42,111 nt of DNA, from positions 1 to 42,111 of IMG/VR virus record IMGVR_UViG_3300020477_000055; one strand, given 5' to 3'. Both the position numbers and the translations under genes were made by a program. The first letter of the stretch is position 1; every line of letters starts with the position of its first letter. Of this stretch, positions 15,433 through 31,800 are shown piece after piece. The notes beneath the pieces are model-generated. The model was not told the DNA's origin, made no database searches, and worked only from the letters and a program-made list of their open reading frames with translations. The stretch comes from a virus.

Positions 15433-16063
15433 TTGGTGAAATTTTTTCTATGGGGGAATCATTTTGTTTCGGGGGAGGGTGCGGCTTCGCCGACCCCCCC
15501 CGCCCCTCGTTGGCCGCTAATATAGATTCAGGCCCCGAAGGGGGCTGAAGCTCTGCTGCAGCTCTCTGAGCTGGAGTGATACCCTCTTTTATAGACTCTT
15601 TATCCTCTTTAAGCTCTGCAGTCCCTTCCTCAGGCCCTACATCAACCGCAGCCCTTTTTTCCTCCGCAGCCTTCAATGCTTCCTCCAGCATCATTTTAAG
15701 CTCTGCAGGGCCATCAGCACGCTCATGTACGACTCTGGCCGTCGGTTCGCCCTTGAGCGCCAGCAATTTGTCTGTCGCCACGGCTGAAACAATCGATAAT
15801 TCCTTAAGACCTGGCTCTTCACCCCCGGCAAGGCGCTCCTGTATCTGCTCAACTCCAAGCTGTGCGACGTTCGTCCACTTCTTAGCAAGCGTGGCCTGCT
15901 CGTCTGCTATTGGCTCTGCATCCATCTCCCGCACTGCTGTAACTGTGTGAGCGCTGCATTTTAATTGCTCTGTAATGGCCTTGATAGTCATGCCACGGGC
16001 CAGAAGGCCTCTGATGGCCGCTCTGCGCTCGTCTGAAGTCTTTGCGAGGTTATGAACTCCCAT
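15419..16063 (-). CDS. HTH protein; possible small terminase or regulator
   Basis: 214 residues from the ATG at 16061-16063, which shares a base with the previous stop (TGATG) and follows GGAG. Residues of about 10-48 (DERRAAIRGLLARGMTIKAI, then CSAHTVTAVREMD) form a resolvase-like helix-turn-helix. The middle (LKELSIVSAVATDKLLALKG) resembles phage HTH proteins that have a GI/AxTDKxLxLxGEP motif. Some of these are small terminases or transcription regulators. The C-terminal 90 residues are disordered, rich in Glu, Ala and Pro. It is the best small-terminase candidate in the window by fold, but it lies 6.5 kb from the large terminase among early genes, so a regulator is just as likely. Confidence 0.65.
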   Translation of the reverse strand: MGVHNLAKTSDERRAAIRGLLARGMTIKAITEQLKCSAHTVTAVREMDAEPIADEQATLAKKWTNVAQLGVEQIQERLAGGEEPGLKELSIVSAVATDKLLALKGEPTARVVHERADGPAELKMMLEEALKAAEEKRAAVDVGPEEGTAELKEDKESIKEGITPAQRAAAELQPPSGPESILAANEGRGGSAKPHPPPKQNDSPIEKISPNVDS

Positions 16064-16326
16064 CAATTAACTCCGGTAATTGGCTCACCCTTATTGAGGA
16101 GCTCAAGGAGCTCATCTCTCCGCACCAGTGGGATTTGAGAGCTGAAACCCTGCTTTTTCAGTTTACCCGATGAAACTAGCCTCTGAATTGTATCAGGCCT
16201 GCAGCGTGCTATGCCTGCGGCTTCCTTGTAATTAAGGAAAGGACGGCCAGCGTCTATGATAGGCTCAAGGCTAGCATTAATGGACTGTAACACTTGGATT
16301 ATTTCCTCGATGCGCTTTTCAGTCAT
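16063..16326 (-). CDS. HTH_17/excisionase-like DNA-binding protein
   Basis: 87 residues, first gene of the leftward unit. FLNYKEAAGIARCRPDTIQR, then LVSSGKLKKQG, then IPLVRRDELLELL is the MerR/excisionase-type (HTH_17) fold, preceded by a 28-residue helix. Such proteins serve as excisionases or as regulators of lysis-lysogeny. A candidate promoter (TTGCAC, 16 bp, TATTTT) ends about 7 bp before the ATG, so the mRNA may be nearly leaderless. The -35 element overlaps the 13-base box at 16349-16361. Confidence 0.75.
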   Translation of the reverse strand: MTEKRIEEIIQVLQSINASLEPIIDAGRPFLNYKEAAGIARCRPDTIQRLVSSGKLKKQGFSSQIPLVRRDELLELLNKGEPITGVN

Positions 16327-16476
16327 GAGAGAGAAAATAACCCATGTTCCGCAGTGTGCAACATCGTCTTTTTATCGGCCAATTAACCACCTGTTAACAG
16401 TGAGGGCTCTGCGGGGCTCTGCATGCCCTCTGCGGTATTGTGTTGCTTTTTAGCTGATTATAACTTTTTTAGGTCT
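16327..16476. promoter_or_regulatory. Divergent control region between the two transcription units
   Basis: 150 bp without genes between the leftward HTH gene and the rightward RHH gene. Leftward, TTGCAC and TATTTT stand 16 bp apart just before the ATG. Rightward, a TATAAC box lies at 16459-16464, 12 bp before the RHH ATG, with a weak -35 (TTGTGT, 15 bp away). The region holds CCGCAGTGTGCAA (16349-16361), which recurs inverted at 16815-16827, and GGGCTCTGC twice (16404-16412 and 16414-16422). This is the pattern of a lysis-lysogeny switch with shared operators. Promoter calls are inference. Confidence 0.55.
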
Positions 16477-16662
16477 ATGGAAAAGAAGCCTAGCCAGATT
16501 ACTGTATCAATGCCGAAAGAGCTCTTGGAGTTTATAGAACGCCGCAGTGGTGAGTTGGGCATTGGTCGTGCCCAGCTTATAGTACAGTATATACGGTCAG
16601 ATATGAATAATGAGGGTAAACCGTTGGTAGTTATTCCTACGCACAAAGAGAGAGGCCTATGA
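16477..16662 (+). CDS. Ribbon-helix-helix regulator
   Basis: 61 residues starting at ATG 16477. PSQITVSMPKELLEFIERRS, then LGIGRAQLIVQYIRSDM is the Arc/CopG/MetJ fold: a strand (QITVSM), helix, turn and helix. No longer domain is present, so it probably acts as a dimer. It is the first gene of the rightward unit and diverges from an excisionase-like gene. No CI-type repressor is present in the window, so this protein is the best candidate for the prophage repressor or for a Cro-like control factor. Repeats around the gene are plausible operator sites. Confidence 0.8.
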   Translation: MEKKPSQITVSMPKELLEFIERRSGELGIGRAQLIVQYIRSDMNNEGKPLVVIPTHKERGL

Positions 16663-16891
16663 GGGCTCTGCATTCCATTCTCACCCTTCGCTGCGGCCCT
16701 TGGTGGGCCGCCCTTAACAGTTAAAGCTCTGTAACACTTCGGCCTTCGGCCTCAGATTGTAACCCCTCTCAAAAACTTGTCAACAGGGTTACGAATAGAT
16801 TACGAAATAATTACTTGCACACTGCGGGGCACTGTGGCACCTTACCCGAGCTGTGCGACACTGTGCAGCATTAAAATAAATCCAAAAAAAA
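16663..16891. promoter_or_regulatory. Intergenic control region upstream of the small-gene operon
   Basis: 229 bp without a gene. It contains a perfect 7-bp-stem hairpin (GCGGCCC, TTGGT loop, GGGCCGC at 16693-16711) that may end the RHH transcript; an inverted repeat GTAACCC (16759-16765)/GGGTTAC (16786-16792) around a TTGTCA -35-like box at 16777-16782; the box TTGCACACTGCGG at 16815-16827; and three copies of CACTGYG (near 16820, 16830, 16859). The TTAACAG...GCTCTG element of the divergent region recurs at 16712-16731. The following gene starts after a poly-A stretch without a clear Shine-Dalgarno site. Together these suggest a regulated promoter for the small-gene operon. Confidence 0.5.
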
Positions 16892-17119
16892 ATGAGTATA
16901 TATAATCAAGCAAGCATAAGCGACATCCAGCGCTCAGTGTGGCCTGAAGTCGAGAACTTTATTAATCAAAACCCTGACCTCCCAGATGTGACCGTTTCGG
17001 ACATATTCACGCCGCATAGCGTGATGGAATTTGCGGGTAAATTCGGAACCACCAGAACAACAGTTCGCTACGCAATCGATGATTGTATTGAACAGGTATT
17101 AGAGGAGGGCGAGGAATGA
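16892..17119 (+). CDS. Small HTH-like hypothetical protein
   Basis: 75 residues, acidic. The C-terminal half (VMEFAGKFGTTRTTVRYAID) looks like a helix-turn-helix, with an N-terminal helical segment (SISDIQRSVWPEVENFINQN). It starts after a run of A residues with no clear Shine-Dalgarno sequence. It overlaps the next gene by 4 bp (ATGA), which couples the operon. A regulatory role is possible, but the fold match is weak. Confidence 0.62.
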   Translation: MSIYNQASISDIQRSVWPEVENFINQNPDLPDVTVSDIFTPHSVMEFAGKFGTTRTTVRYAIDDCIEQVLEEGEE

Positions 17120-17421
17120 ATTCACCAGAAATAAAAATAGGCCGCAATGCTCGCGGTTCATGGACTGCCGAGACTTACGCGCTCGGCCATCTAATCACCA
17201 CCACCAAGTACGGCAAGCATGTTATTTGTCATGCACGACTCGCCGAAAAGGAAGTCAGCGAGGGGTTTGTGAATTACATTTACGACCCAATTGAAGACCC
17301 ATCCTTTGAACTTGAGCGCGAGCAGTTCAACCGCGTGACCCCTAAGAGCGTCGACAGTGTCCATGCTCGCGGGCTTCACAAGTTCTTTACCATCATGGCA
17401 GACAAGGAGGCCGTAGCATGA
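17116..17421 (+). CDS. Hypothetical protein
   Basis: 101 residues with no recognised domain: GSWTAETYALGHLITTTKYG, then HVICHARLAEKEVSEGFVNY, giving an alternating strand pattern, then a helix near the C-terminus (LHKFFTIMADKEAVA). A Shine-Dalgarno site (GAGGAGGGCGAGG) precedes the ATG and the gene overlaps both neighbours by 4 bp. It is part of the coupled rightward operon of unknown genes. Confidence 0.62.
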   Translation: MNSPEIKIGRNARGSWTAETYALGHLITTTKYGKHVICHARLAEKEVSEGFVNYIYDPIEDPSFELEREQFNRVTPKSVDSVHARGLHKFFTIMADKEAVA

Positions 17422-17687
17422 TTGAAATTAAACAAGGTTCTTTCAAAGGCAACGACACGCTCGAAATCCACCGCGACGGTCAACGGGTTATCTCGTTCGG
17501 CAAACGCAAAGCGCAGGCGATTGTTGAAGCCATCCGCGATGAAACCGCGCTCCGGTGTCTGGAGATATTCAGTGGTTACGCCAAGGCAGACTACGAGGCC
17601 AAGCAGGCCGCAGCAGAAGCCGCAGACCGTAACAAGTTTGACGAAGCTTACTGCGCTGCGGGTATGGGTGAGGAGGTGTCACAATGA
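17418..17687 (+). CDS. Hypothetical protein, helical
   Basis: 89 residues. A short beta-hairpin start (IEIKQGSFKGNDTLEIHRDG) is followed by a basic turn (SFGKRKAQAIVEAIRDE) and a long Ala-rich helix (YEAKQAAAEAADRNK). No enzyme motif is visible. It overlaps both neighbours by 4 bp. Function unknown. Confidence 0.6.
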   Translation: MIEIKQGSFKGNDTLEIHRDGQRVISFGKRKAQAIVEAIRDETALRCLEIFSGYAKADYEAKQAAAEAADRNKFDEAYCAAGMGEEVSQ

Positions 17688-18073
17688 GTCGCACACGAAC
17701 CAGCATCACTGAGCTGCAAACGCAGCGTGACAACCTAGAGCGCGAGCTAAACACCCTTGACACCGCATGTGTCAGGGGTGCGGGCTTCACAAAGCACACC
17801 CAGAAAAAACACAATAGCCTTGCCAAGAAAATAGCAGAACTTGACAGGCGAATCCTTGCCACCATTGACGAGCCACATAAGGCCGCTGGAACGCATGACG
17901 ACCCAGTGAGGTACACACACAACGCCAGCACTGCGGAGGGCCGCAGGCGTGAAAATAAGGCTAATTGGGACGCAGCAGAAAAGGACGCGAAGGAGGGGAA
18001 AGTGCTTTGCCTTTCAGACCTCATCTGCAGCGCTGAAGCTGTCCACATTGACCAAATAAAGGGGGGCAAATAA
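17684..18073 (+). CDS. Coiled-coil hypothetical protein
   Basis: 129 residues. Residues 5-65 are a predicted antiparallel coiled coil (SITELQTQRDNLERELNTLD, then KKHNSLAKKIAELDRRILAT). The rest is polar and likely flexible, ending KGGK. No domain is recognised. It overlaps the previous gene by 4 bp and shares a base with the next start (TAATG). Function unknown. Confidence 0.6.
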   Translation: MSRTRTSITELQTQRDNLERELNTLDTACVRGAGFTKHTQKKHNSLAKKIAELDRRILATIDEPHKAAGTHDDPVRYTHNASTAEGRRRENKANWDAAEKDAKEGKVLCLSDLICSAEAVHIDQIKGGK

Positions 18074-18237
18074 TGCCACGCAAATACACCAACAAGCTCC
18101 TTGAGGGCCTTGATGAGGGCATTTACGCCAAGGATGAAATAATCAACGCATGCCTCACTTATATGAGCGAGGACGATGTTGCCGACATGTGCCACAGTGA
18201 AGGGCTTATTGAGGAGGACGAGGAGGGTGAGGAATGA
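18073..18237 (+). CDS. 54-residue acidic hypothetical protein
   Basis: Reading from ATG 18073 gives MPRKYTNKLLEGLDEGIYAK, then a helical acidic sequence with YMSEDDVADMCHSEGLIEED and a Glu-rich tail. SEDDVADM is a short motif seen in small phage proteins. Its start overlaps the preceding stop and its stop overlaps the next ATG, so it is coupled on both sides although short. Function unknown. Confidence 0.6.
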   Translation: MPRKYTNKLLEGLDEGIYAKDEIINACLTYMSEDDVADMCHSEGLIEEDEEGEE

Positions 18238-18374
18238 TGCACCAAGTCATACCCCACACAGGAACAGAGGAGCCCGTAAAGGGCTCCTCTAATCCTTACT
18301 ATGAATACTACATCACCGGACAAGGTGAAGTTGTGTTAATCGATATTGAACCAGCAGAAGAGAGAGAAGAATAA
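18234..18374 (+). CDS. 46-residue hypothetical protein with internal hairpin
   Basis: Starts at the ATG at 18234 within the previous stop (ATGATG) and reads MMHQVIPHTGTEEPVKGSSN, then YYEYYITGQGEVVLIDIEPA and an acidic end. A perfect 10-bp stem lies inside the reading frame (18266-18290). No domain recognised. Coupling to the upstream gene supports translation, but at this length coding status is uncertain. Confidence 0.45.
   Translation: MMHQVIPHTGTEEPVKGSSNPYYEYYITGQGEVVLIDIEPAEEREE
18266..18290 (+). terminator. Perfect 10-bp hairpin inside the rightward operon
   Basis: AGAGGAGCCC and GGGCTCCTCT close a GTAAA loop, then AATCCTT follows. The stem is terminator-like but the T tract is poor. 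It lies inside the frame of the 46-residue reading, so it could be an attenuator or RNA-processing site separating expression of the upstream small genes from the downstream ones. Confidence 0.4.
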
Positions 18375-18380
18375 TTAATA

Positions 18381-18791
18381 ATGAATATCAAAACAGAATA
18401 TATTGAAGCACGGGAAAAATACGAGGCCCACCTAGCCGCTCAAGTAGAGCGGCTGGGTGCTGCCTTACCCGACGGCCACAAAATTGAAATAGGTGAGAAC
18501 CTAATTAGAGAAAGCTACTTCGTTATTAAAGGAGAGTGGACAGATTCAATCTATGGAGTAGGCAAACATCAGGGAGAGGTTTTTGTCCTCTGGGGGAATA
18601 GCGCTTGGGGAAGGTGCTCAGATGCGCTAGCGGCGGAAGCGACAGGAAGTGCGTTCAATTGTGCACCCCTCAGACAGGTTGAGCTCTTTATTGAGATACT
18701 GGCCAAGGCTACCCCAACACCAATGGATAAAGTGGAACAGGAGGCATGTTTAGGTGATTGGGAAAAAGAGAGAGGAGAAATCAAACAATGA
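18381..18791 (+). CDS. Hypothetical protein
   Basis: 136 residues: an N-terminal helix (YIEAREKYEAHLAAQVERLG), then strands (YFVIKGEWTDSIYGVGKHQG, then EVFVLWGNSAWGRCSDALAA) and a C-terminal helix. No catalytic motif identified. It lies 6 bp after the previous stop and overlaps the next gene by 4 bp. Function unknown. Confidence 0.65.
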   Translation: MNIKTEYIEAREKYEAHLAAQVERLGAALPDGHKIEIGENLIRESYFVIKGEWTDSIYGVGKHQGEVFVLWGNSAWGRCSDALAAEATGSAFNCAPLRQVELFIEILAKATPTPMDKVEQEACLGDWEKERGEIKQ

Positions 18792-19291
18792 ATATAATAA
18801 TAAAATGCGAAAATTGCGGAGCACACGGCACCACATTACACAAGATGTGTCACGGATACTGGGATGAACAAACGCAGCGCATGGAGGTATTCAGTGAGTG
18901 TGAAGGTATAGACTGGTACTGTGATGAATGTGAAACCGAGGTGGGTGTTGAGGAGGTTACTGTTGAAATTAATTTCTGCCGCACTTGCGGGCAGACAATT
19001 GACAGCAGGAAGCATATCAATTGGACCGAGGCCTTTTGCAAGTTCGGATACGGTGACGGTGACGGTGAAGTGTTCACACCGGAGATAGTAGAACACATTG
19101 AAAAGCTTGGGCTAATTTGCGAGTGCAGCGGATCCATGCATAACACTATCATTGACTCAATCAAGGACAAGGACGGCAAAGAGCTCATTGGTGAGAGTGT
19201 GGAAACGGGCTACGACTGCCCGCGAGTCTACTTGCCTAGCTTCCTTATCAAACACCTCGACGCTAAATATAACGGGGAGAGCGTGGTATGA
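18788..19291 (+). CDS. Multi-cysteine zinc-finger-like protein
   Basis: 167 residues from the ATG at 18788 (coupled as ATGA to the previous gene). The first half has three Cys pairs: CENC at about residues 7-10, CDEC at about 44-47, and CRTC at about 61-64. Additional Cys lie at about 18-20 and 35-45, so at least one or two zinc-ribbon folds are expected. The rest is a compact region with two Cys (ICECSG) and a C-terminal helix (SFLIKHLDAKYN). Phage zinc-ribbon proteins often bind nucleic acids or host factors, but nothing here points to a partner. Confidence 0.66.
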   Translation: MNIIIKCENCGAHGTTLHKMCHGYWDEQTQRMEVFSECEGIDWYCDECETEVGVEEVTVEINFCRTCGQTIDSRKHINWTEAFCKFGYGDGDGEVFTPEIVEHIEKLGLICECSGSMHNTIIDSIKDKDGKELIGESVETGYDCPRVYLPSFLIKHLDAKYNGESVV

Positions 19292-19833
19292 GTAAACACC
19301 AACAAAAACATAACGAATATAAGCAGGTGATAAAGGAGGGCGCTAGGAAGGGCGTAGAACACGCACAGGCCCTCTTGTGGACGCTTTTAGAGCGGAACCC
19401 TGACAAGTGGGTGGTACTGCTCGGTGAGTGGTGTAATTACGCTTACAGGGGCCAAGACAATAGAGCCTCATGGTGGCCAGCGCTTCACGCACGCAGGCCA
19501 TCATGGCCTGCACCAGCTCTCAAGATGCAGGTGCGTGACCTTGACCCCTGCGTGCATTGCTTGGAGCCAACATTTTACGGCTCCGGTAGATATGTGAACC
19601 GCATCCCTGCAGACCGACCCAATGACCTCGACGAGGCAGGGCCAAACAAAGCCATGCGCGAGGGGTACGCATGCGCGGAGTGCATGGGCCGCGAGTGTGA
19701 CCACTGCGGCAATGATATTGCGATGGATGAGGACTTGAAACACCCAGAGACAGGCGAGGGAGATTACCACGAGGAATGCCTGAAGGCGCTCGGATTTACA
19801 GATAAACAAATTGAAGAAGGACAAGAAATATGA
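19288..19833 (+). CDS. Zinc-ribbon protein of unknown function
   Basis: 181 residues. The N-terminal half is helical and Trp-rich (QALLWTLLERNPDKWVVLLG). The C-terminal half has CVHC at about 88-91, CAEC at about 128-131, CDHC at about 137-140, and HEEC near the end, a double treble-clef or LIM-like pattern that should bind two zinc ions. It overlaps both neighbours by 4 bp. The mixture of a helical N-terminus and double zinc ribbon is not one I recognise. Confidence 0.66.
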   Translation: MSKHQQKHNEYKQVIKEGARKGVEHAQALLWTLLERNPDKWVVLLGEWCNYAYRGQDNRASWWPALHARRPSWPAPALKMQVRDLDPCVHCLEPTFYGSGRYVNRIPADRPNDLDEAGPNKAMREGYACAECMGRECDHCGNDIAMDEDLKHPETGEGDYHEECLKALGFTDKQIEEGQEI

Positions 19834-20285
19834 GCAAAGAAAATATGACTAACGACATCACGGGCGAAGAGTATAGCATGCTGATTGTATGGGAATACTG
19901 CATCGAAATAACAGCGCCGCATAGCTACAAGAAATTACTGGAGAGGACTGCAGAGATTCAAAACGATAAAACCATGAACCTCGCCAGTTTGATTGAGTGG
20001 AAGCGGAACAGTGTTGGCTCCTTCGAGATGCGGCGCTGGGCGGGCCTTGTCGGGCGAGAGCTGGACAGAGCTTTCGACAAAGCCATTGAAGCAGGTGCAG
20101 CCGAAGCAGGAGAATACTGCGTTGCGTTCGACTTCGATTGGATACCTGCGGTGCTTGAGGATTACGCACAAGCGCACAACGAGCTCATTCCACCCCAAGA
20201 GGCCTTCCAGTACGGCAAGGCCCATTACAAACAGTATATGGAACGAGTTCAGGCTGAGGATGAGAAGAGGAGGACTATCGTATGA
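19830..20285 (+). CDS. Hypothetical helical protein
   Basis: 151 residues, almost wholly helical (SYKKLLERTAEIQNDK, then SFEMRRWAGLVGRELDRAFD, then WIPAVLEDYAQAHNELIPPQ). It has no metal or nucleotide motif. It is coupled at both ends by 4-bp overlaps, to the zinc-ribbon gene and to a 31-residue membrane peptide. Function unknown. Confidence 0.63.
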   Translation: MSKENMTNDITGEEYSMLIVWEYCIEITAPHSYKKLLERTAEIQNDKTMNLASLIEWKRNSVGSFEMRRWAGLVGRELDRAFDKAIEAGAAEAGEYCVAFDFDWIPAVLEDYAQAHNELIPPQEAFQYGKAHYKQYMERVQAEDEKRRTIV

Positions 20286-20377
20286 GGAAAGAGTGCAGAG
20301 AGCTGCTTGTGGGGGCCGCAATGGCCCTTGTAAGCATTTTATTAATCAAAGGAATAATCTTATGGCTATTAAATTAA
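20282..20377 (+). CDS. 31-residue single-membrane-segment peptide
   Basis: The reading MRKECRELLVGAAMALVSIL, then LIKGIILWLLN ends in TAA. It has one transmembrane helix from about residue 8 to 30 and a basic N-terminus that would stay in the cytoplasm. The ATG lies inside the previous stop (ATGA), so translation is coupled. The next gene begins inside its last codons. A short hydrophobic peptide of this type could be a holin-like or superinfection-exclusion peptide. No function is proven. Confidence 0.6.
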   Translation: MRKECRELLVGAAMALVSILLIKGIILWLLN

Positions 20378-20619
20378 AGAGAGACAGAGAATCGTTACAG
20401 CCAAAAAAGGGCCGTAAACTTGGCGAATATGCAGAGGCTATCACTGCAGAATTTAGGGATATGAGAAGGGGTGAAAGCTTCACCCTTAAAGTTGATGGTG
20501 CCAGTGAGATGTGGGCGGTCAGGCAGGTGCTTCATCGACTGAAACGGTCAAAAGTAATACGCAATTACCGCACGAATTTTGACCCTATTAATAACAAATT
20601 GAGAGTATGGAAAGCATAA
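20362..20619 (+). CDS. Small basic protein ahead of integrase
   Basis: 85 residues from ATG 20362, preceded by AAAGGAATAATCTT. It is basic (IKLKRDRESLQPKKGRKLGE), with a two-helix middle (SEMWAVRQVLHRLKRSKVIR) and a short C-terminal strand pattern (FDPINNKLRVWKA). It begins within the end of the membrane peptide gene and ends 3 bp before the integrase. Basic charge and position suggest DNA binding, perhaps an accessory or excisionase-like factor, but no HTH is clear. Confidence 0.66.
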   Translation: MAIKLKRDRESLQPKKGRKLGEYAEAITAEFRDMRRGESFTLKVDGASEMWAVRQVLHRLKRSKVIRNYRTNFDPINNKLRVWKA

Positions 20620-20622
20620 ATT

Positions 20623-22005
20623 ATGAGTAAAAGTAAAAAGTGGAAAAGGAATCCAACAGAATTAAAGGTGCCTAACCTGTACCAGTCCCACTCCGGTAAG
20701 TTTATTTATCGTTTCAAGATAAACGGTGTTAATAGGGATAGGCAGCTAGATGCCATGACAAAGAGCACCGCCCGAATTGAAGCCTTGCGTAAGCAGAGCT
20801 TGCACGACAAGGTGCGGAACGGTTTAGAGCCCCCAGAGAAAGACCCTTTTGCGGCTAAAAGCGTGGTGGCACTCACCACCGTGGATTCGCTTTATGCCGC
20901 ATGGGAGGATGCGGGTTATCCCGATTTTAAGGATGACCCGCGCCTCCTAACAGAGCAGAGGCAGGGTGAATACAAGGCCGCAATCAAGTCGGCTATAGAG
21001 TTCTTTGGGTCGTATGAGGCTGAAGCCATTAGCCCCAAGGACTTGGATGCCTTTTTTTCATGGAAAACAAAGGGCCTGGCCGAGGGAGCAAATGCCAGGG
21101 CAACCGATACCGCACTTGATAAGTTGAGTGGCCTCTTTAAGTGGGCCAGACGAAGAGAGCTGGTCAAGAGACTCCCTGAGGTTTGCAACAACCGGAAGAA
21201 GTACCAGAAGTGCGAGGAGGTTGCTCACTGCACCGATTTCATGTGTAAGAGCGACGAGGAGCTGCATGAGTTCTGCGGCCTAATCATTAATGCACCCCGC
21301 AAAAAATACTGCTCGGTGTATGCTCACAATGCAAGGGTTGCTGTCGGTTGGGCCTTACTGTTTGAAGCATTAATGTCACCTCGCAAGAGTGAGCTCCTCA
21401 GAGCCCGAATGGATGCTAAACCAAAAGAGACGGGCCATATGAGCTGGGCCACAGACCCGGCATGGATGTTCGTGGAGCGAAGCAAGAAAGGCTGTAACCC
21501 TCATATTCTGCTTGAGCAGGTGGATGGTAACAGAGCCCTATACGACCTCATTCAGAGTCATCGTGCTTGGCATAAAGCCACCTACAGAGAAGAGGTCTAC
21601 GGGCGGAAAGTTCCTTGGTTCTTCCCGAATCGTGATGGTGGGAAAGTTGAGCCAGAATCAAGCCATATCACGCAAGTAATCAAGTGGGCTTGTGATGAGC
21701 TGGGAATCCCAGACAAGATAGTAAACGGGAAACGGCGAAATGGCCGCTCATCCCACGGGATGAGAGCTTTCTTTGTCCACACACTCCGCAGTCAGGGTGT
21801 GAGTGATGGCGAAATCGCAATGCGTTTAGGCCACAAGGGGGGACCAGATTTGGTTGTTCAAGTCTACGGCATTAACGAGCCGGGTTGGGGTGGAAAAAAG
21901 AAACAAGACTGGCTACCAGAGGACCCAAACAAGACCGCATGGGCTAAATGGTTGCCCGAATCACACACCCTACCACACACCCTATCTCTCTCCGTATCTG
22001 GCTAG
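20623..22005 (+). CDS. int: Tyrosine site-specific integrase
   Basis: 460 residues with all tyrosine recombinase catalytic residues visible: R254 (SPRKSELL), H378 and R381 (HGMR), H404 (LGHKG) and nucleophile Y415 (QVYG). The second-domain Lys is not securely placed. The N-terminal 80 residues are basic and carry a strand-rich segment (SGKFIYRFKINGVNRDRQ) like the arm-binding domain of lambda-type integrases. The middle core-binding domain begins near residue 85. It would recombine attP at 22056-22105 with a tRNA-Gly gene of the host. It is the last gene of the rightward unit and ends before the attachment region. Confidence 0.94.
   Translation: MSKSKKWKRNPTELKVPNLYQSHSGKFIYRFKINGVNRDRQLDAMTKSTARIEALRKQSLHDKVRNGLEPPEKDPFAAKSVVALTTVDSLYAAWEDAGYPDFKDDPRLLTEQRQGEYKAAIKSAIEFFGSYEAEAISPKDLDAFFSWKTKGLAEGANARATDTALDKLSGLFKWARRRELVKRLPEVCNNRKKYQKCEEVAHCTDFMCKSDEELHEFCGLIINAPRKKYCSVYAHNARVAVGWALLFEALMSPRKSELLRARMDAKPKETGHMSWATDPAWMFVERSKKGCNPHILLEQVDGNRALYDLIQSHRAWHKATYREEVYGRKVPWFFPNRDGGKVEPESSHITQVIKWACDELGIPDKIVNGKRRNGRSSHGMRAFFVHTLRSQGVSDGEIAMRLGHKGGPDLVVQVYGINEPGWGGKKKQDWLPEDPNKTAWAKWLPESHTLPHTLSLSVSG
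21962..21988. promoter_or_regulatory. Left arm-type-like repeats of the attachment region
   Basis: Two direct copies of CACACACCCTA lie at 21962-21972 and 21974-21984, spaced 12 bp apart. The second extends to CACACACCCTATCTC (21974-21988). They fall within the last integrase codons. The same 14-base run, ACACACCCTATCTC, recurs at 22148-22161 on the other side of the tRNA-like core. Spaced direct repeats flanking a tRNA-derived core are the usual layout of integrase arm sites. This assignment is inference. Confidence 0.6.
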
Positions 22006-22055
22006 TATCTCTGCAACTCTCTGCAGTGGGGAGTTAAAGAATAACACTGAAAAGT

Positions 22056-22105
22056 TGGAGCGGGTGGCGAGAATCGAACTCGCGTCATTAGCTTGGAAGG
22101 CTGGA
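22056..22105 (-). other. Probable attP core: 3' half of tRNA-Gly(UCC)
   Basis: Reading the minus strand from 22105 to 22056 gives the anticodon arm (CCTTCCAAG with UCC anticodon), a short variable loop, T-arm (GCGAG, TTCGATT, CTCGC), acceptor strand CACCCGC, T and CCA of a tRNA-Gly. The 5' half is absent. The 5' side of the anticodon stem mispairs in its outer two bases (CC against AA), so identity with the host gene likely begins inside the anticodon stem at about 22102. This is the form left in attP by phages that integrate at tRNA 3' ends and restore the gene. It lies 51 bp past the integrase stop. Confidence 0.85.
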
Positions 22106-22112
22106 GATAAAG

Positions 22113-22147
22113 CAAAAAACCCTCGGTAAAACGGGGGTTTCTTTTTT
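22113..22147. terminator. Bidirectional terminator between convergent units
   Basis: AAACCCTCG (22117-22125) pairs with CGGGGGTTT (22132-22140) around a GTAAAA loop, with one T-G wobble. The + strand stem is followed by CTTTTTT and the minus strand stem by TTTTTTGCT, so both converging transcripts could end here (integrase from the left, metallopeptidase from the right). It lies inside the attachment region between the tRNA fragment and the right arm-type repeats. Confidence 0.8.
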
Positions 22148-22172
22148 ACACACCCTATCTCACGCCCTATCT
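22148..22172. promoter_or_regulatory. Right arm-type-like repeats of the attachment region
   Basis: ACACACCCTATCTC at 22148-22161 repeats the left copy exactly, and ACGCCCTATCT at 22162-22172 is a second copy, again with 12 bp between CCCTA motifs. The last bases overlap the stop of the metallopeptidase gene. Symmetry with the left pair across the tRNA-like core supports an integrase arm-binding role. Confidence 0.6.
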
Positions 22173-22450
22173 TATTCCTCAACCTTTCTGTAACCCTCTT
22201 TCCAGAGGACTCTACTGAGCAACTTACCTGCGGCATCGACATTCTCTTCACTCTCCTCAGGGTAGAGCAGATGGACCAGCTCGTGCAAGGTAATCTCTAA
22301 ACGGCGCTTACCCCGCAGGCGCTTGTCCAGCCAGATGGTGTGGCCCTCAGCCATGCCCCAAGCTCGTTCCCTGCCAAACTTGCCGTGGATGACCTTGACC
22401 CGCTTTACTTCAGCAAATTGAACGCATCCTGGTACTTTTGGTACTGACAC
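22172..22450 (-). CDS. Small HExxH zincin-like metallopeptidase
   Basis: 92 residues from a GTG start (22448-22450) with AAAGGA ahead of it. EITLHELVHLLYPEESEENV carries HELVH at about residues 55-59 and a downstream Glu (EESEENV) that may be the third zinc ligand. The N-terminal pattern PKVPGCVQFAEVKR and the short length match a phage family annotated as metallopeptidase-like. Its substrate is not known; the lack of a signal peptide argues for action inside the cell. It overlaps the upstream nuclease gene by 46 bp and ends at the attachment region, a typical place for accessory cargo genes. Confidence 0.76.
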   Translation of the reverse strand: MSVPKVPGCVQFAEVKRVKVIHGKFGRERAWGMAEGHTIWLDKRLRGKRRLEITLHELVHLLYPEESEENVDAAGKLLSRVLWKEGYRKVEE

Positions 22451-22851
22451 AAATTATCCTTTCTCGCACCCAGACCCGCAGGCCAAAAGTGAGCAGTGGT
22501 TTTATTAACCTCACCAACCGGAATGATATAGATACCATCATCATTGAGCTCCTTGTAATCACGGCTATAAGGGAGGAACACGGCAATCACATCAGTTTGC
22601 TCCCGAGTATAAAGAGAACCATTCTTACCCGACTTACCCATGTTGACATGATAGGAGGTTCTAACGCGAGTGGCAGTCTTGACCTGTACCCGGTTAATTT
22701 TACCATCCCAGTCAGAAATAATATCCCACCCCATGTAATCCCCATGACTAAAAGAAACACCAAAACCCTCACGAAGGAGGGCCGTAGCGGTAGCAGTTTC
22801 AGCTATGGTGCCTGACTCACTGCTTGAATTGCGTTTCCGTGATTTTTTCAA
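22405..22851 (-). CDS. PD-(D/E)XK endonuclease (group I intron endonuclease-like)
   Basis: 148 residues starting at a TTG (22849-22851) with a strong AGGAGG upstream. SSSESGTIAETATATALLRE, then GDYMGWDIISDWDGKINRVQ, then VKTA reproduces the PDDEXK_5 layout: Glu in the first helix, an Asp after the G-x-D, then Q-V-K with the catalytic Lys. Members are related to intron-encoded I-Ssp6803I-like nucleases, though here it stands alone rather than in an intron. It overlaps the end of the polyvalent gene by 35 bp. It could cut host DNA or resolve phage DNA. Confidence 0.76.
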   Translation of the reverse strand: MKKSRKRNSSSESGTIAETATATALLREGFGVSFSHGDYMGWDIISDWDGKINRVQVKTATRVRTSYHVNMGKSGKNGSLYTREQTDVIAVFLPYSRDYKELNDDGIYIIPVGEVNKTTAHFWPAGLGARKDNLCQYQKYQDAFNLLK

Positions 22852-25800
22852 GGTGCCTCCTGAGCTTTTCAGCCTGTGCCTTCATGCCTAATTCCATTGC
22901 AGAGAGTATATCAGTATTATAGTTATTGAAATCATTCTGATACCAAAAACTAAGGTCCTCGAAATCAGCTTCTTGCTGCGGAGTGCGGCCCTGCTCCCCG
23001 AAGCGCTGAAGCTGGTAGTATTTCCGCAGAGCGTCCTTGGTGGCCTCGCCATACTTCTCGCGGTGGATAAGGCTTGCGCGTTGCTTCTCGCTTAACTGGT
23101 TAAACTGTTGCTCTCGATAACCATAATCCGACACCTTCAAAAAGCGATTAACAAGAGGAGTGTGGAGAGCAAGGCTTGCAATAAACCCATCCTGCTCGTC
23201 ATCCGCTAATTTAGTGAAGTTAAATGCGTCTCTAGCGCCCATTTGATTCAGTGACCATGTTGCCATACCCTTAGCCCCTTCAAGGCCTCTGAGGCCCTCC
23301 TGAGTGCGGTTAAGAATGGGCCTGTCGCGGAAGGCATCTTCTGGATTCCTCCCCTGAGCGTACTCCAGCCATTTCCCTGGAACTGAGATGAGGGGATTAT
23401 CACTTGGACCCTGTTCAACTGTATAGTTTAGAGCTTCATGGAGCTTGGAGGGGTTGTCTCCAAATTGCCGGGTGAGCTTGTATATTAATCCACTAACAAA
23501 CTGAGCAGTAAAGTCTCTTGGAATACGGATATAAACCGTTTTCTTGCCGTAATCACCACCGGCCTGCTGGCCAAGCGGCACAATCAGATAATTGGTCTTA
23601 TCGTACTCAGAAACACCGTTGTAGAGCTCTTTAGCATCATCACCAATAAAACCACCATCCGATAATCCCTGAAAGAGGGCAAGTAATCCATGAGCCTTGA
23701 CATACCACCACCACCATCCTGCCGCAGTCCTTGCCCGCTCCCAACCCTTCTTCTTGGCTTTATCTTCAGGAGATGAGTGCCCCTTCTTGTGGGGATGGGT
23801 GCGGGTATGGCCATAAGAGCCTGAAGCCATCTCGTAATCCGCCTTCATACCCTCCTTAAACACATTAAAGAAAGGTATCTTAGCCTTAATGATTGAAGCA
23901 TAAGCCCCGGCTCTACGGGTATGAGGGGTGCCTGCATAGTTCCTAACAGTAAAGCCTGCGTCACGGGGAGTCTTTTTATTGTAACGCCGCAGGTATTTGT
24001 AAGTGGAAATCTTAGGCAGAGCCTCAAAGAGGTCGCCAAGGTTAGCCATCCAGCTCATTAACCTGTATTTACCCAGCTTATCCATCAGGGTTTCAGGTTC
24101 AGGATTAATAAGGCCGTATTCTTCCAACTGTTGCCCAACAGTGCCCTGCTCATCGTAATGCTGGGTGTGGCGCTTATTAGCAGGCCCAATAGCCATGTTA
24201 CCCATCATTTCTGCAAGCAGAGGGTGCTCGTTAGAGCCCTTCATCCTAACAAATCCCGCATCCATTGCCTTGAGATACTCCCCAAGCATCTCCCTGCGGG
24301 AAAGTTTAAGAGTCCGCCTGGTACGGCCAAAGTCCCTAACCACGTTGGAACCATGAAACCCAATATTGTAGGTGATGAAAATAGGATAGAGCCATTTCTG
24401 GAATGTTTCAGTGAAGAAACCGGCCATAGCCTGCAGAGAGGCATGGGTTTCATGGTTAAAGCCATCAGCTATCAATGGGTCCACATCGTAATGGACCGGC
24501 CTACCATTCTCAAACACCGTAAGGATTCCGAAATCAGGGTCAGGGATTGGCTTCTCCCAGAACGGGTTAGCTTCCCTGTCTTTTATTGCAGGGTCACGGT
24601 ACTTCTTAACTGCTGTTTTCTTAATATCACCCCCATGCCATTCAAGCAGGTGGTCGCGCACAGTGCGCTTAGCTTTATTGACAGCAATAAAGTTGTGCAT
24701 ACTCACGGCCTTCATCAGCATGGAGGTGAGCGGGTTGGCAATCTTCTCAAATGTACCGTACTGACGTTTAACCCCCGCAGGCATGCTGGCCTGCAGATAT
24801 TTCATCACTGCAAAGGGAACATAGGCATTTCGGTTCGGCTTAATAACACGGTCAAATGTAGTGGCATTAATGACACCCTCTTGAGCGGCCATCTCAGCTA
24901 CCTCAAAGAATAAATCGTGCAACCTGGGTGCGGCCCAGTTCTGAATAAGACCGGAGCGCCTGGGACCCAGCCTATTGCGGAGTGCAATCAACTGCTCTTT
25001 GGCAGCAAGCGGCCCTATGCCTCCGGGGTTTGCAAGGGACGAACGCTCATTAATGATACGGTCAAGCTCCAGCCATTTACCAAGAACATCATAGGAAACA
25101 CCCTCAGCCTCCAGCTCCTTGATTACATCAAATGATTTCTTCAGGTAACGAGTGTTATGGTTCTCAGCCCACCAAAGGGATTCTTCCACCATCACACGAG
25201 GGTCAGTCTCGATGCTAGGGTTGTAACCCCTATCCTTGGCCTCAACCAGTTTCTTCTCAAACTTGGAATGCCGGTAATTGAACATAAAGGAAAGATGGTC
25301 CCACCAGCTTTTCCAGTGCTTACGCCGGTTGCGGGCTTCCTCCGCTTTCTGCTTAATTATCTCATCAGCCTTGGCGTACTCCTCCAGACTGTCATTGATA
25401 CGGCCCTGGACGGCATCAACATAATCATTGTCAAGAGTCTCCCAGAGCTTAATAAGTTCCTGCGATAGCTGCGGTTTTGAGTCAATACCCTCAAAGAACC
25501 CACGGTAAAAGTTTGGAGCCATCTCCTGCAATAGCGCCGGGTCATTGAACAGTACAGAGAGAGCATCAGCATAGAGCTCCTTGGAGCTGTTGCGGTATTT
25601 CTTAAATGACTCAGGTGAATTAGCAGGGTCCCACGGCCTCCAGTACATGCTAAGCTCCTTGAGTTCCTCCCTTAATTCGGCATCACTCAAGTTACCAAAC
25701 CTCTTCTCCATAAAGTTGTGCAGAGATTTAAGGCGGCCTATAACATTGCCGCGAGCCATAGTCCTGTCATCCATGAAATCAACCCAGTGGCCTATTTCAT

Positions 25801-28800
25801 GGGCAAGAGTCTGAGCTGCACGCATCTCATCAGTGAACATGCCCACATCAATGACAATATCACCACCCTTATGGTAGCCGTGAATTTTCATGCCACCCCT
25901 GGAAGGAATGTGCTGCACCTTCGGGCGCTTACCCATTACGGACTCATAGAGTTTAACCAGCCAGGTCATCTTCATGGGCCGCACGTTCTCCATGCCACCC
26001 AACTTGACAGGCACCTTGGTCATCTTACCACCTGGTCCTAGCATGCGATAAGTATAAGCCTCATCACTGCTCTCGTTGCTGGGGTTGTATTCAGCGCTTT
26101 GAGCCTCAAACTCTCCCCAGGATTCAATAGGTACACCCAGTAGGTGATTAGGCAAGGTAGGTTGCGGTAGTCGTTGGCTTATTTTCTGCAGAGCTGTTTG
26201 GTTAATATCCGCATACCCCATGATGTCAGCAAAAACCCCTGATTGATGCAGGTTAACGAAACCACTATAATGTTTACTATCCGCTATATTCTCAGCCGTA
26301 TAAACACCAAAAGCCTTCGTTGCCCCTGCAGCCGCAGCCTGCCTGCGAACATAATCTATCCCATCATTTGTTACAGCAAGAGCGGGGTCCATCTCTATAA
26401 CTGCGCGTAAATGCCCATGTGGACCAAGAAGCGCAACAGCTAGGTTATTGCCCCATCCCACGCCGTATTTAGATTCACTAATAGATTTTGCTATAGCGTT
26501 TGCATCGATTACATAATCAGCTATCTCAGGTGAATACTTGGAAAGGTTTTTACCTATCAAACTTGCACTTTGCTTAGTGCCTCTTGCGGTTAAATAACTA
26601 TCAATTAATTCCTTTGGATATTGGTGGTGTTCTGAAGGACCATTAGGATTTAATACTTTGTATTTGGTGAAATTATGAACAATACCTATTGTTGGAATAA
26701 AGTCATTATAAGCATCAATTACCTCCTGGTCCCTGGGGGAACTAGTAGCTAGGTCCTCACCAATTGGCTCATTATGAACAACAACTAATTTCTTTACCCC
26801 TAAAGCAAGAGCCCTGCTAAGGAAGTCTTTAGCCGCAGGTGCAATGTGCGGTGCTCCTAACCCTCCCCATTCACTAATAATTACATTGCCAGCATTATCA
26901 AGACCAACTAAGTGGGAGCTCTCTACATAAGGATTTCGGATAAGTGAGGTTAGCGCTGCAACCTCGTGCTCACCCTCTACTCTTCGGTTGAGGAGGTCGG
27001 CAACCCCGAATTTATTGACTTCAAAATCGATACCGGAAATGAGCTGTCCACCTGGTAAGGGACTTCCGGGTCGTAAGAGATGTAGAAGGTGTTCCCTGGC
27101 TGCGACACTTTGGGATGATTGTAGAGATGCTTTAAGGAAGGCCGCTCGTTCTTCTGCTTTCTGTCGCTCTCTTTGCTCACGGACTGGTGCTTCTTCTGTT
27201 ATGTAGGGTATCTGCTTAGCTTCAAGCTGGGCCTTGGCTTTTTCAGGCTTCTTTATGTCGCCTTTAACTGCGGCTTTAAGAGCCTCCAGCTTTCGCAGTG
27301 TAATACCAATATTCCATCTGTCAATAGGATGAGTTGTTAACGGCACCACAACCTCAGACTTACTCTGAGTGGTAAGGCGACTGGCGCGACCTATCATCTG
27401 GACAAATTCAAGTGAAGAATATGGCGGGGTAACAATTATGGTTACACGAGGTTTATCCCCATAAACATCATCCAAGCTAACTCCTGTCCCACCGGAGCCA
27501 GGTGTTGCCAGAACAATATCCGCTACCCCTTCCTGAAACTTGGCCATCTCAGCCTGCTTCTTACCCTTGGTCATAGGGCCAAATAGTTTGGCGGTTTTTA
27601 CTCCTTCATTCTGCAGAGACATTTCATAGGCAGCCAGCGTCTCTTCATTAGTGCCAATAGTTGATTCACCCGCAACACGATGAGCAAACAGAATTACCTT
27701 CTTACCATCTTTAATATGCTTCTTGGCTTCATCAATGGCATATTTCATCTTAACCGACTCAAGAAACTTGCGGCCCTGGTTCTTCTTCAGGCGTTCAAGG
27801 CCGCCCGCAGTGGGGTTGTTGGAGGTAGCCAGATATTGCTCCTCCAAAAGCTCCATCTTCTTCTGGATGGTAAGAACATCTCGTGGAGTCAACTTCACAT
27901 TGCGATAAAAGATTTCCGTGTTGTTCAGTGGCACTTCATCCTTAATGGCTCTACCAGCCGCATAGACATCCTCCCAAACTACATCAATATTCTCCTCAAT
28001 CTGCTCCCATGTCATACCCTTAATGGGGGTCCACTGGCCTTTTGCGTTTTGTTCCAGCCCCATCTTGGCCATAGCCCTTTCAACAGATATATCGAGTAAG
28101 TTTCGGTAGGCATATACCTGGTGCGGTTGGTCCATCGGGCTTGCGGTTGCATACATTACATGCTTCGCCTTCTTAATTAACCTGTCAGCCCGCTTCGCTG
28201 TGGCTGTGTTGATAAGCATGTTACGGATGTTATGGGCTTCATCCATAATGATGGTATTAAACTCACCGGGCTTAACCTTCATCATCTGCACATCAGTATA
28301 AGTACCAATGTAAATTTTCTTATCCTTCTCAGGCGGCTTGCCTCCAAACTCGTAAATAGGTATCCCCATCAATTCAGCATCCTTTGCAAATGCAGAGTGC
28401 ATGATGCCACGGTTCTCAGTGAGGATGAGAGTGTAATCACCTTCCTGGCCGTACTTGGCCATGTAGTCAGCAATGGCTAACTGGGTCATCGTCTTACCGG
28501 AACCAGTACCACTGGAGTTAAGGAAGTGGCCGCCCTCACCCTCAGGGCCAATCATCGCAGACAAGGAGCGCACAACCGCATCAGCTTGGTGCGGTTTAAG
28601 GATTGGGTGGTGCTCCTTAACCCAGCTAGATAAAAACTTATGACCCCAAACATCTTTAAGTTTAGGAACCAGGTCAGCCCTGGCCCGTATCATTTTAGTG
28701 TTAGGTGGTGGAGGTAACTCCCGCTTATCACCAAACTCAATTTCCTTCTGGATGCCCTCAGCCTTAGCCTCCTTGGGGCCAAGTATCCTTTCATGTTCCT

Positions 28801-31800
28801 TTACCGCGCCACGCTCATAAACATATAGAGCTGGCTGGATAGCTTCCACCGGCATACCGTCAAGAGTCCATTCAAGCCGCAATTGGCCACCCTCCTCAAA
28901 GAGAATATCAGCAATTAGCTTACCCTCAGACTTCTTGTAACTTGTTACCTGGCCGATACCTGTAACCCTATCTTCGGTCAACCCCTGGGTATCAAGGAAG
29001 TCCTGCAGGCCTGGAGTACCAAACTTTAACTCAACCTCAGCACCCTCACGCAGAGCCCTTGGATCCGCAGCCTTCTCGCCCTTGGTTGAATACAACTCTC
29101 CCTCTTCAAAGGGGAGATATTGAGCGCTACTGGCCTCGAACAAGCCCATCTGAGCACCGGGCTCTATAAGGAAATCCTGTTGCCTGTTGGTAATGGGGAA
29201 TGCGGGTGGCTTCTTCTTGGCTTGGTGTCGCTTCTTGAGCTCCTCTTTTTCGGCATGACGCTTGGCAAGCTCTTCTTCCCGCAGTCGGGTTTGCTTAAAG
29301 AAGCCCATGAACTCCTGGCCTAGTGCCTGCTCTATGGCGTAAATCTCGTCACTGAGCTTCTGGGGCACTGGCTTGCGGTCCCCGGTAGGTTTCTTTAACT
29401 GATTCTCCTCATGCTGTTTAAGGCGCTTGTATAGCTCGTTAAGGCGCTTTACCTGCGGGTCGCCTTCACTGGAAGGAAGGTACTGAATCTCTTCAGCTTC
29501 AAGCACTCCTTGCTCCTTAACTTCAATAACAGAATCATCAAAAACGACATAATTTTTTGCGCGTGTTAAACCTGTATATGTAAGGCCCATCACACCACGA
29601 GCAAACAGTAACTCGGATGCCTTCCGGTCTGATTCGTAATCGGCCACCTTGCCTTCTGCTAATTTCGCGCTCAACTCTAAATATGCGTCATGCCCTGAAA
29701 TTGAGGAGTCAGTAACTCCTGAATCCGCAAACGCTTTCTTCACGACCTCCGACTGTGAACCAAGTGGCTCAGACTCAACCAGAAACTCATCTAAACTTGC
29801 CCTGAGTTTTACTTGGAACGGAGCTCCTCTGTACCCTTGATATGACCGCGCATATTCTTTTGAGCCAGTGAAGTATGTCCCCCAGCCATGAAAGTTCTTC
29901 AAATTATCTTTATGAAGTTTACGCCAGTTACGAACGTGTTCAGAACTGGTAATAAATTCAGGAAAATCCTTTTTACTTCCGTGAAATACCTGAATCCCTC
30001 TTCCCTTAAAGTCCCTCTTGGGAAGCTCATGCTTGGCAAAAGGCAAATACTGAACCTCCTCAGCTTGCAGCTCCCCTGGCCCCATATCAGCAATTACTGT
30101 GTCCTTAAAGTTCTGATAGAACTTCAGGTTAACATCATCAAACAAGGCCTCTTGCGGGTCTACTTTATCAAGGGATTCCGCAGCCTGAATAGTGGTTTTA
30201 TTCCAGAACTCTTCCCATTTCCCAATAGTGGAATCAGTGTTGGGCCTTCCAGCCTTACCGTACTGAACTAGGCTCTTCATCCGTAGGGCCATGAGCTGTG
30301 CGGCCTCATAACCCGGGTCAGCAATTAACTCTCTTTGTCCATAAATGTGGGCAAGGTCTTTCGGCAGACCCTCACGGGGTTTACTCTCATGCCTCTCAAT
30401 AACCCTGGTAACAAGCACCCCAAACGGTTCCGTTATGTCCTGATAACCTTTTTGTTGAAGTGTAAGCAGAGCCTCAATAGGTGAGTTAATGAACCCCTTA
30501 TAAAGAGGTAAGGCACTGGCCTCAGCCCAGTCAGCAATGAAAGGGCCATGCTCAGTTCCGAAAGCCTTGGCCGTGGTGAGCATACGTGCATAGCGAGTGG
30601 CCTCCTCCATGCTCTGAGTAACCCTCACCCTAGTGTTGCGGTCAATGCGACCCATTGCAATGAGCTCACTGATTACATCCCTTGGGTCCTTGATTGCTTC
30701 AAATATCTCACCAACCTCCTGTGGGCTTAACAAGGCCGCATCATTAAAAGCCATGCTTGCTGTACCCTCAACCTGGCCCGCAGAGGGGTTTAGCAGGTCA
30801 ATGATTTCATTAGCGGCAGCAATGCCTTCCTTGCTGCTGACATCGTGCGGGGGAAGTATCCTGACAAGGAGGTGGTCACTGGAAGGGGACTTAGGTAGCC
30901 CAACCATGTCAGCCGTTTCATCTGATTGCCTGCGTAATTCCGAAAACTGTTCCTTGCTTAAATTATTAATTGCCTGAAATCGTGCATTCCCGCCAAGCAC
31001 ACGGTAAACACCATCAGAACCCTGGCTAACCATTATTGGACCTACCTCGGCACTTGCACCAAAGTTATTATACTGAAGCGGCTCAAACTCACTGGCCGTC
31101 TTGATAACCTTCTCCTGCTCAGTCTTGTCCTTCGAGTAATCCCTGGTGTTCTTGAGTGGGGCAAACTTCTCATTAGCCTTAAACTGTTCACCATGAGAAG
31201 CATTAAGCAATGCTTTGGGAGCCCAGGCATACTGGGCATCCATTGACTTGCCTTTCTGAAGGCCTCTCAGTGGTGCAGGCCGACCAACTACCACCTTTTC
31301 AGATGGGGTAATTGGTTCGACTGGCTCTTCAGGTAGCGGCTCCTCAGCAGGAACCTCAGCGGGCTCCGGTTCCCCAGCACGTTCCATTGCCTGCTGCTCA
31401 ATAGAGGCCCAGTCCTCTTCCATGTTGCCTTCTTCAAGGAACTCTTTCTTGAGCCGGGTTATCTCATCATAAGCAGGACTACCTTCCTCGGTGGTATCAG
31501 TCATAGCCTCATTAATTAGGCCTGACACCTTAACAACCAATCGCTCATCCGCTTCTGCCCGGGTAATGTCCTCAAGTGATGATGGTTCTTCAGGTTTCGG
31601 TGTGGGCTCAACTATCTCACTAGGCGTAATGCCTTTTCCTTTAAGGTATTGGTCAAGGACAGCTAAACCTTTTTCCCTGCCACCCGTAAACCAACTTAGC
31701 TTTGTTACGAAAGGTATATCTACACCGGGGAAATTCTTATCCCAACCCTCACCAAGTAGCTCATACTCCATGAAGTCGCCAGGTAATGTTTCACCAGCAA

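Follow-up and report, generated by a model that had tools for sequence, protein, structure and literature searches.

A modular operon of small genes ending in an integrase gene, from a phage with a probable Verrucomicrobiales host, compared with the lambda exo-xis region

In bacteriophage lambda, the replication genes lie on one side of the repressor, and on the other side lies a series of small genes with the integrase gene last, CI being the regulator beside the region. In the exo-xis region of the pL operon, small genes precede the integrase gene in the same orientation, a conserved block is combined with a variable set, and the products include small zinc proteins as well as a coiled-coil protein whose N-terminal part varies (as outlined in sections of PMC8614690). 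Pro-lysogenic and lysis-hastening effects have been assigned to ea22 and orf63 (excerpts of PMC7093339; PMC10869804). Here, we compare with this region an operon of small genes at positions 16892-20619 of IMG/VR virus record IMGVR_UViG_3300020477_000055, the whole 42,111 bp of which were analyzed and are called the window below. The operon is of a familiar kind and is modular in its relatives; by analogy, it is best read as a region of accessory small genes in an operon that has the integrase gene at its end, lambda exo-xis-like in its working. More fully, it is probably the integration-side operon of a temperate Verrucomicrobiales phage, in which translationally coupled small genes that end in the integrase double as a swap site for accessory genes, with early use under the control of a ribbon-helix-helix (RHH) protein. 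A literature search returned nothing on this gene block.

A preliminary description of this DNA proposed a rightward operon of ten genes between a repressor-like gene and the integrase gene. The chain and its position stand, and the count rises to 12 open reading frames (ORFs), g1 to g12, which encode 75, 101, 89, 129, 54, 46, 136, 167, 181, 151, 31, and 85 amino acids and are followed 3 bp further on by the integrase gene. The 4-bp overlaps said to chain the genes are exact at 8 of the 12 junctions, that between g12 and the integrase gene included, with spacings of -1, +6, -16, and +3 bp at the remainder. Most starts overlap the preceding stops, and purine-rich sequences that by eye resemble ribosome-binding sites lie ahead of most of them. 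A codon-usage score was trained on 11 genes of the phage other than g1-g12, including the integrase gene; by it, 11 of the 12 operon ORFs and the RHH gene score best in their own frame, and all four long antisense ORFs tested score negative. The ratio of nonsynonymous to synonymous substitution rates (dN/dS) of g2, g4, and g10 against their relatives is 0.16-0.35, which indicates constraint; for the RHH gene and g12, synonymous sites are too diverged for a ratio. The operon is real. An antisense gene at 17569-18195 was considered and ruled out by its negative codon score and by the constrained g4 on the plus strand.

The search with the phage primase led to four related contigs (L056-L059), two of which, L058 and L059, reach the operon; profiles of m7, g10, and g4 recovered no additional contigs from IMG/VR. 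Contig L058 carries, in order, the RHH gene, g2, g4, g10, a gene for a 64-residue zinc-ribbon-like protein (zr64), g11, and g12, without g1, g3, and g5-g9, and its genes overlap save for 3 bp between g4 and g10. Contig L059 carries the RHH gene, g2, g4, and a gene for a 65-residue protein (z65) before the contig ends, again without g1 and g3. In both contigs, the leader found ahead of g1 in the window is joined directly to g2, which is directly followed by g4. Therefore, a different gene follows g4 in each of the three phages. On the sequences compared, the operon is modular, with a skeleton of g2, g4, g10, g11, and g12 that is kept and a set of genes, g1, g3, and g5-g9, that is swapped. The accessory genes would have been gained or lost as whole genes at gene junctions. 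Those accessory genes that can be recognized, g9 among them, recur in phages unrelated to this one: protein zr64 matches phrog_32296 and, in Rhizobium and Pseudomonas phages, seven records, and z65 has a match in a Tunturiibacter phage and a weak one in a cyanophage.

All 12 genes are on the plus strand. Among the skeleton genes, g2 (17116..17421) is 72% identical in L058 and 69% in L059, with dN/dS of 0.27 and 0.31, g10 (19830..20285) is 75% identical in L058 with dN/dS of 0.27, and g12 (20362..20619) is 51% identical in L058. The product of g4 (17684..18073) is 94% identical in L058, where g2 reaches 72%, a sign of recent exchange, and 73% identical in L059. The hydrophobic g11 (20282..20377) is the codon-score exception, its own frame not being the best, and has a dN/dS of 1.31, with 24 of 31 residues kept in L058; it is weakly supported and is the weakest gene call of the operon. 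The accessory genes g1 (16892..17119; acidic, with a weak helix-turn-helix, HTH) and g3 (17418..17687) are absent from both contigs, and g5 (18073..18237; very acidic), g6 (18234..18374; acidic), g8 (18788..19291; zinc-ribbon-like, with 12 cysteines), and g9 (19288..19833; a helical N-terminal part and a double-zinc domain) are absent from L058. For g7 (18381..18791), no homolog was found in Pfam, PHROGs, NCBIfam, or the phage collection. That most of these accessory ORFs are noise without coding function, lying among a few real genes, is highly improbable. Such a reading could appeal to g1, g3, and g5-g7, which are without a convincing homolog in the libraries tried, and to g8, which has a zinc-finger resemblance only, but the codon score is best in the own frame for six of six (g1, g3, g5, g6, g7, and g8), and the overlapping starts and ribosome-binding-like sequences likewise speak against it. 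This division into kept and traded genes turns the block into a short list for testing.

The three features of exo-xis named above recur here, the conserved block and variable set being drawn from three phages, two of them cut by contig ends. The coiled-coil protein is g4, whose N-terminal part is variable and coiled-coil-like and whose C-terminal part is conserved; in L059 (positions 273-701 of that contig) the N-terminal half is strongly different and the C-terminal half is kept. Of the features listed in the preliminary description, the coiled-coil and HTH-like ones are confirmed as sub-threshold Pfam matches of g4 and g1, respectively, and g11 is hydrophobic. Pfam was scanned with all 12 products, and PHROGs, NCBIfam, and PADLOC with nine (g5, g6, and g11 left out). 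None of the products scanned has a Pfam or NCBIfam match above the curated cut-off, and Pfam, PHROGs, and NCBIfam give no clear replication or packaging homolog; g4 matches a head-tail joining family at E 0.035, a head-tail adaptor at E 0.098, and a tape measure protein at E 0.027, all below threshold, and we read these matches as coiled-coil noise. The statement that none of these genes belongs to a recognized family thus largely holds for an almost wholly uncharacterized block, with the match of g9 to phrog_35699 as the sole convincing one. No homolog of orf60a, orf63, orf61, orf73, or ea22 was named for nine products in PHROGs and NCBIfam or for twelve in Pfam, scans that involved no direct comparison with the lambda proteins. 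Because no exo-xis homolog was detected, the likeness to that region would be one of working, not of demonstrated membership. It also differs from lambda in its host phylum, in that an RHH-like rather than a CI-like regulator adjoins it, and in that no excisionase was identified, with the basic g12 occupying the place beside the integrase gene. The g12 protein (pI 10.8) is predicted to form an alpha-beta-alpha-beta-beta domain (predicted local distance difference test score, pLDDT, of 76, in a model built from two sequences). This model has no significant Foldseek match, and VIA-align places Stn1, R3H, and Alba among the top matches (Z up to 8.0), possibly just through a common arrangement. 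Nucleic-acid binding by g12 is plausible at most, and the model gives no support for a winged-helix excisionase.

The operon lies on the strand opposite to the structural and replication genes of the window, the leftward genes, which encode an SU10-type major capsid protein, a terminase match, a primase, an Erf-like annealing protein, a RusA-like resolvase, and an SSB-like protein. With these replication and recombination genes in the leftward operon, the two sides appear to divide replication from integration. No terminal direct repeat of 11 bp or longer was found in the window. The integrase gene (20623..22005, plus strand, 460 amino acids) matches the PHROG integrase family phrog_1 (E 3.1e-14) and in Pfam gives a match at E 0.098 only; it is classed as a tyrosine integrase from the PHROG profile match together with a tRNA attachment core. 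At E ≤ 0.001, 26 of 293 Verrucomicrobiales genomes contain a relative of the integrase; searches of IMG/VR and of the phage collection gave no match to it.

Beginning 46 bp past the integrase stop, a 51-bp stretch on the minus strand (22052..22102) corresponds to the 3' half of a tRNA-Gly(TCC) gene and is identical at 51 of 51 positions to L043, a contig of an uncultured Verrucomicrobiales metagenome-assembled genome (MAG). Because of this identity, the stretch is the probable attP core, and the host is probably a Verrucomicrobiales bacterium. The window and L043 differ on the anticodon-stem side of the common stretch, a pattern that fits attP against attB. A single contig of the genome collection contained an exact copy of a 41-bp pattern from the core, and a 47-bp version with up to 3 mismatches occurred in 7 of the 293 Verrucomicrobiales genomes, exactly in one. 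ARAGORN called tRNA-Gly(TCC) in six of these seven loci and not in the remaining one, which a contig end truncates; it called no tRNA in the window and none in L043, whose tRNA is truncated by the contig end. The sequencing run behind the MAG is, we assume, marine (Tara Oceans), and the host bacterium is probably marine as well. A probable host is thereby supplied for a phage group otherwise found here as metagenome contigs only. A lytic phage infecting Verrucomicrobia, P8625, has already been described (excerpt of PMC4642752).

Upstream of the operon lies the gene of a 61-residue Arc/CopG-like RHH protein (16477..16662, plus strand), a candidate repressor kept in L058 and L059 with 46 of 59 residues identical in each. 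It is separated from g1 by 229 bp of control DNA (16663..16891) that holds stem-loops, a leftward promoter match, and three CASTGTG-type repeats (16818, 16830, and 16859); a fourth repeat, at 16352, lies in the control DNA between the leftward operon and the RHH gene (16327..16476), identified in the three-phage alignment. The GC-rich stem-loops are at 16693-16711 and 16741-16751, the first with seven pairs and -16.3 kcal/mol in the window. In the three-phage alignment of the whole gap, four pairs have changed on both sides and the covariation term is only -0.32, slight support for a conserved structure. With this gap and its conserved repeats between them, the proposal that the operon shares the transcription unit of the regulator is not confirmed, and joint transcription with the RHH gene lacks support, although read-through may occur. 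The integrase gene closes this same chain, which makes expression in the prophage, also suggested, doubtful and favors use upon infection or when lysogeny is decided. GCTCTG-type repeated words flank the RHH gene at 16400-16740. Its leftward neighbor, m8 (16063-16326, minus strand), matches HTH_17 at E 3.2e-5, just under the Pfam cut-off, and is a candidate for an alternative excisionase or regulator.

The gene chain, the differences in gene content between relatives, the integrase with its tRNA core, and the g9 family can be read from the sequences themselves; from them we infer the timing of expression, the RHH protein as repressor, the repeats as operators, and the activity of every protein. 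Once the DNA has entered, transcription of the operon would be driven by the conserved control DNA ahead of g1, at a stage when the RHH protein has yet to accumulate. The small proteins could act on host proteins or nucleic acids and so tilt the decision between lysis and lysogeny or help to take over the host; the integrase, encoded last on the message, could insert the phage into the tRNA-Gly gene. In the established lysogen, the RHH protein would silence both this operon and the leftward replication operon, probably at the CASTGTG repeats.

Several observations weigh against this reading. Only two related contigs reach the operon, L058 stopping before the integrase gene and L059 after g4, so the absence of g5-g9 is seen in a single phage, L058. 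The host assignment rests on one short contig, and the MAG that contains it is without an integrase relative. Profile matches of the RHH protein are sub-threshold (Pfam E 0.017; PHROG Arc-like family E 0.013). The concentration of CASTGTG-type repeats counts in favor of the reading, four of the eight in the window falling within the 379 bp of control DNA, where 0.036 would be expected from their density elsewhere, but the pattern was chosen after viewing the alignment; by eye, it fits exactly at three of the four sites in L058 and two of four in L059. No clear rightward sigma70 promoter was found upstream of g1, and the strongest sigma70-type match of positions 16000-22600 (16783-16756, 11 of 12 positions) points leftward, antisense to the RHH gene. 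Both of its hexamers are invariant in the three phages, and the promoter-like sites overall, eight, are not above shuffles (5.7, standard deviation 2.3). Finally, among 31 larger proteins encoded next to g9 relatives in 12 loci, one integrase was seen, with 25 of the 49 PHROG families matched being listed.

The preliminary description singled out g8 and g9, two consecutive zinc-ribbon proteins, as the strongest candidates for superinfection exclusion or anti-defence, and both have zinc-type cysteine motifs (12 cysteines in g8; CxxC, CxxC, CxxC, and HxxC in g9). Both belong to the part missing from L058, the sole relative that spans it, which fits accessory genes. Zinc-ribbon matches of g8 are weak in Pfam, residues 4-52 resemble PHD finger protein 14 (E 3.9e-4, PDB sequence search), and a small uncharacterized PHROG family matches at E 0.0026. 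In NCBIfam, g8 also matches TIGR03830, an MqsA-type antitoxin family, below threshold (E 0.025). Kinship of g8 with zr64 of L058 was ruled out (E 0.23 over 6 residues). Searches of the phage collection gave no match to g8, g10, g7, or g2, and g10 was found in 0 of the 293 Verrucomicrobiales genomes in a search without a positive control. In PADLOC, whose subject is not anti-defence families, the sole match among the nine products was a weak one of g10 (residues 10-59, E 0.027).

Residues 87-152 of g9 match phrog_35699 (E 1.8e-8), a family with no function annotated in the libraries used. The zinc domain spans approximately residues 88-164, with ligand pairs C88-C91, C129-C132, C137-C140, and H161-C164 and a GSGxxVNR motif between the first and second pairs. 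The matches of g9 are four records of two cyanophages, P-RSM1 and MbCM1 (both Kyanoviridae), whose proteins share with it the motifs CxxC, GSGxxVNR, GYxCAEC, CDxC, and DED; the MbCM1 homolog is a hypothetical protein noted 'T4-GC_82'. In IMG/VR, relatives were confirmed in 32 of 42 candidate stretches. Of these 32 loci, 22 were aligned together with L004 and L005; L013, L018, L021, L026, L030, L035, L036, L038, L039, and L042 were omitted as duplicates or near-duplicates or, for L038 and L039, because the frame extension read another ORF. Membership of g9 in the family is borne out across these 24 relatives by the double-zinc domain and the GSGxxVNR and CAEC motifs, and most of them differ from g9 in that its N-terminal, predicted-helical part of about 80 residues is absent (the L017 row starts inside the domain). 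Comparison of the ORFs of the window with those of loci L002-L042 showed only g9 in common, apart from overlapping frames at the same place.

Searching IMG/VR with the g9 sequence alone gave six pattern stretches and no relative, and a search of plasmids gave no match. A host origin of g9 was tried and rejected, a scan of 84,980 species with a single peptide pattern having returned 16 stretches and no relative. The 293 Verrucomicrobiales genomes hold one weak match (E 2.9e-4), and a crude look at its locus revealed no CAEC motif. The g9 family, which is well conserved, thus appears phage-specific, found in phages and not convincingly in the cellular genomes or plasmids searched. Its presence in cyanophages makes its function testable in cultured laboratory hosts.

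The structural model of g9 has a mean pLDDT of 74.8 and a predicted template modeling score of 0.42; blocks of residues 131-180 score 87-97, residues 1-50, mostly helices, 75-83, and the less certain blocks that hold the first ligand pair 65 and 80. In the PDB, the first 11 Foldseek matches are LIM proteins, none of them significant (best E 0.23), and in a viral library two uncharacterized phage proteins match significantly. VIA-align gives Z up to 3.8 for the zinc part and up to 3.3 for LIM proteins; its top row, in which the N-terminal helices align with a subunit of a CTLH ligase (Z 4.5), was not read as kinship. A PDB sequence search with the g9 profile gave one LIM protein at E 0.56, and Pfam LIM is not listed for g9 at E up to 1. 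Like g9, the double zinc fingers of LIM, RING, and PHD domains have four metal-ligand pairs, but the LIM consensus has a spacer of two residues between the middle pairs and g9 has four. These weak structural matches make a LIM-, RING-, or PHD-like binding module a lead only. We regard g9 as a phage-specific double-zinc module that is probably a protein-binding adaptor. A bolder suggestion, which we consider unlikely, is that the domain is a general effector that crosses unrelated phages (the Verrucomicrobiales temperate phage, cyanomyoviruses, and others) and binds one conserved host protein through a GSGxxVNR-CAEC face, switching host transcription or defence, with the helical extension retargeting it here for the lysogeny decision.

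The genes around g9 relatives were annotated from the 31 larger proteins, 20 of which were also scanned singly, and are mixed. The families listed include terminase, DNA polymerase, primase, helicase, and HNH endonuclease, as well as queuine tRNA-ribosyltransferase, one anti-restriction protein (L012), and the one integrase (L015). Our own integrase profile detected no integrase among the 31 neighbors or the early locus ORFs, PHROGs being the source of the one in L015. There (L015:5157-7480), the g9 homolog lies ~0.75 kb upstream of the integrase gene on the same strand, on a contig otherwise unrelated to the window, and a 74-residue ORF that by eye is RHH-like overlaps the integrase ORF start. 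In L012 (L012:6991-8327), the g9 homolog follows by 131 bp the gene of an anti-restriction family, phrog_7245 (E 6.9e-67).

A superinfection exclusion or anti-defence role of the block is possible. The arrangement in L012 would suit a role of g5-g9 in countering restriction or other defences in the first minutes of infection, as would the small, acidic products g1, g5, g6, and g8 (net charges of -10, -13, -8, and -18), since inhibitors that mimic DNA are small and acidic. We nevertheless hold this to be a minor possibility: phrog_7245 is a neighbor in one of the 12 loci, their neighbors having been scanned in part, residues 41-82 of g8 match a Lar-like family only at E 0.67, and the acidity is given as raw charges with no background set. 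Rather improbable, too, is lysogenic conversion, in which the accessory genes, above all g8 and g9, would be made in the lysogen and exclude other phages. Swappable genes of uncharacterized families beside a temperate-phage integrase gene, together with a small hydrophobic protein, g11, are what it would predict. It is opposed by the fact that these genes share a chain with the integrase gene, usually silent in lysogens, by the g9 relatives in P-RSM1 and MbCM1, since Kyanoviridae are mostly lytic phages, by g11, the sole membrane candidate, being a skeleton gene, and by the Pfam, PHROG, and PADLOC scans made, which matched no exclusion family. An integration-side operon used early thus remains our preferred reading of the block.

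Further genes of note lie beyond the integrase. A 3862-residue protein encoded at 22817-34405 on the minus strand has helicase domains and a weak ART-PolyVal match below the cut-off, and is a probable polyvalent protein. Two overlapping genes on the minus strand, at 22172-22450 and 22405-22851, stand beside the probable attP. The product of one is small, contains a HELVH motif, and weakly matches Peptidase_M78/IrrE (E 0.038); the other is the gene of a PD-(D/E)XK endonuclease (PF11645, E 9e-11). If the HELVH protein were a repressor-cleaving protease, its position beside the integrase gene would be noteworthy.

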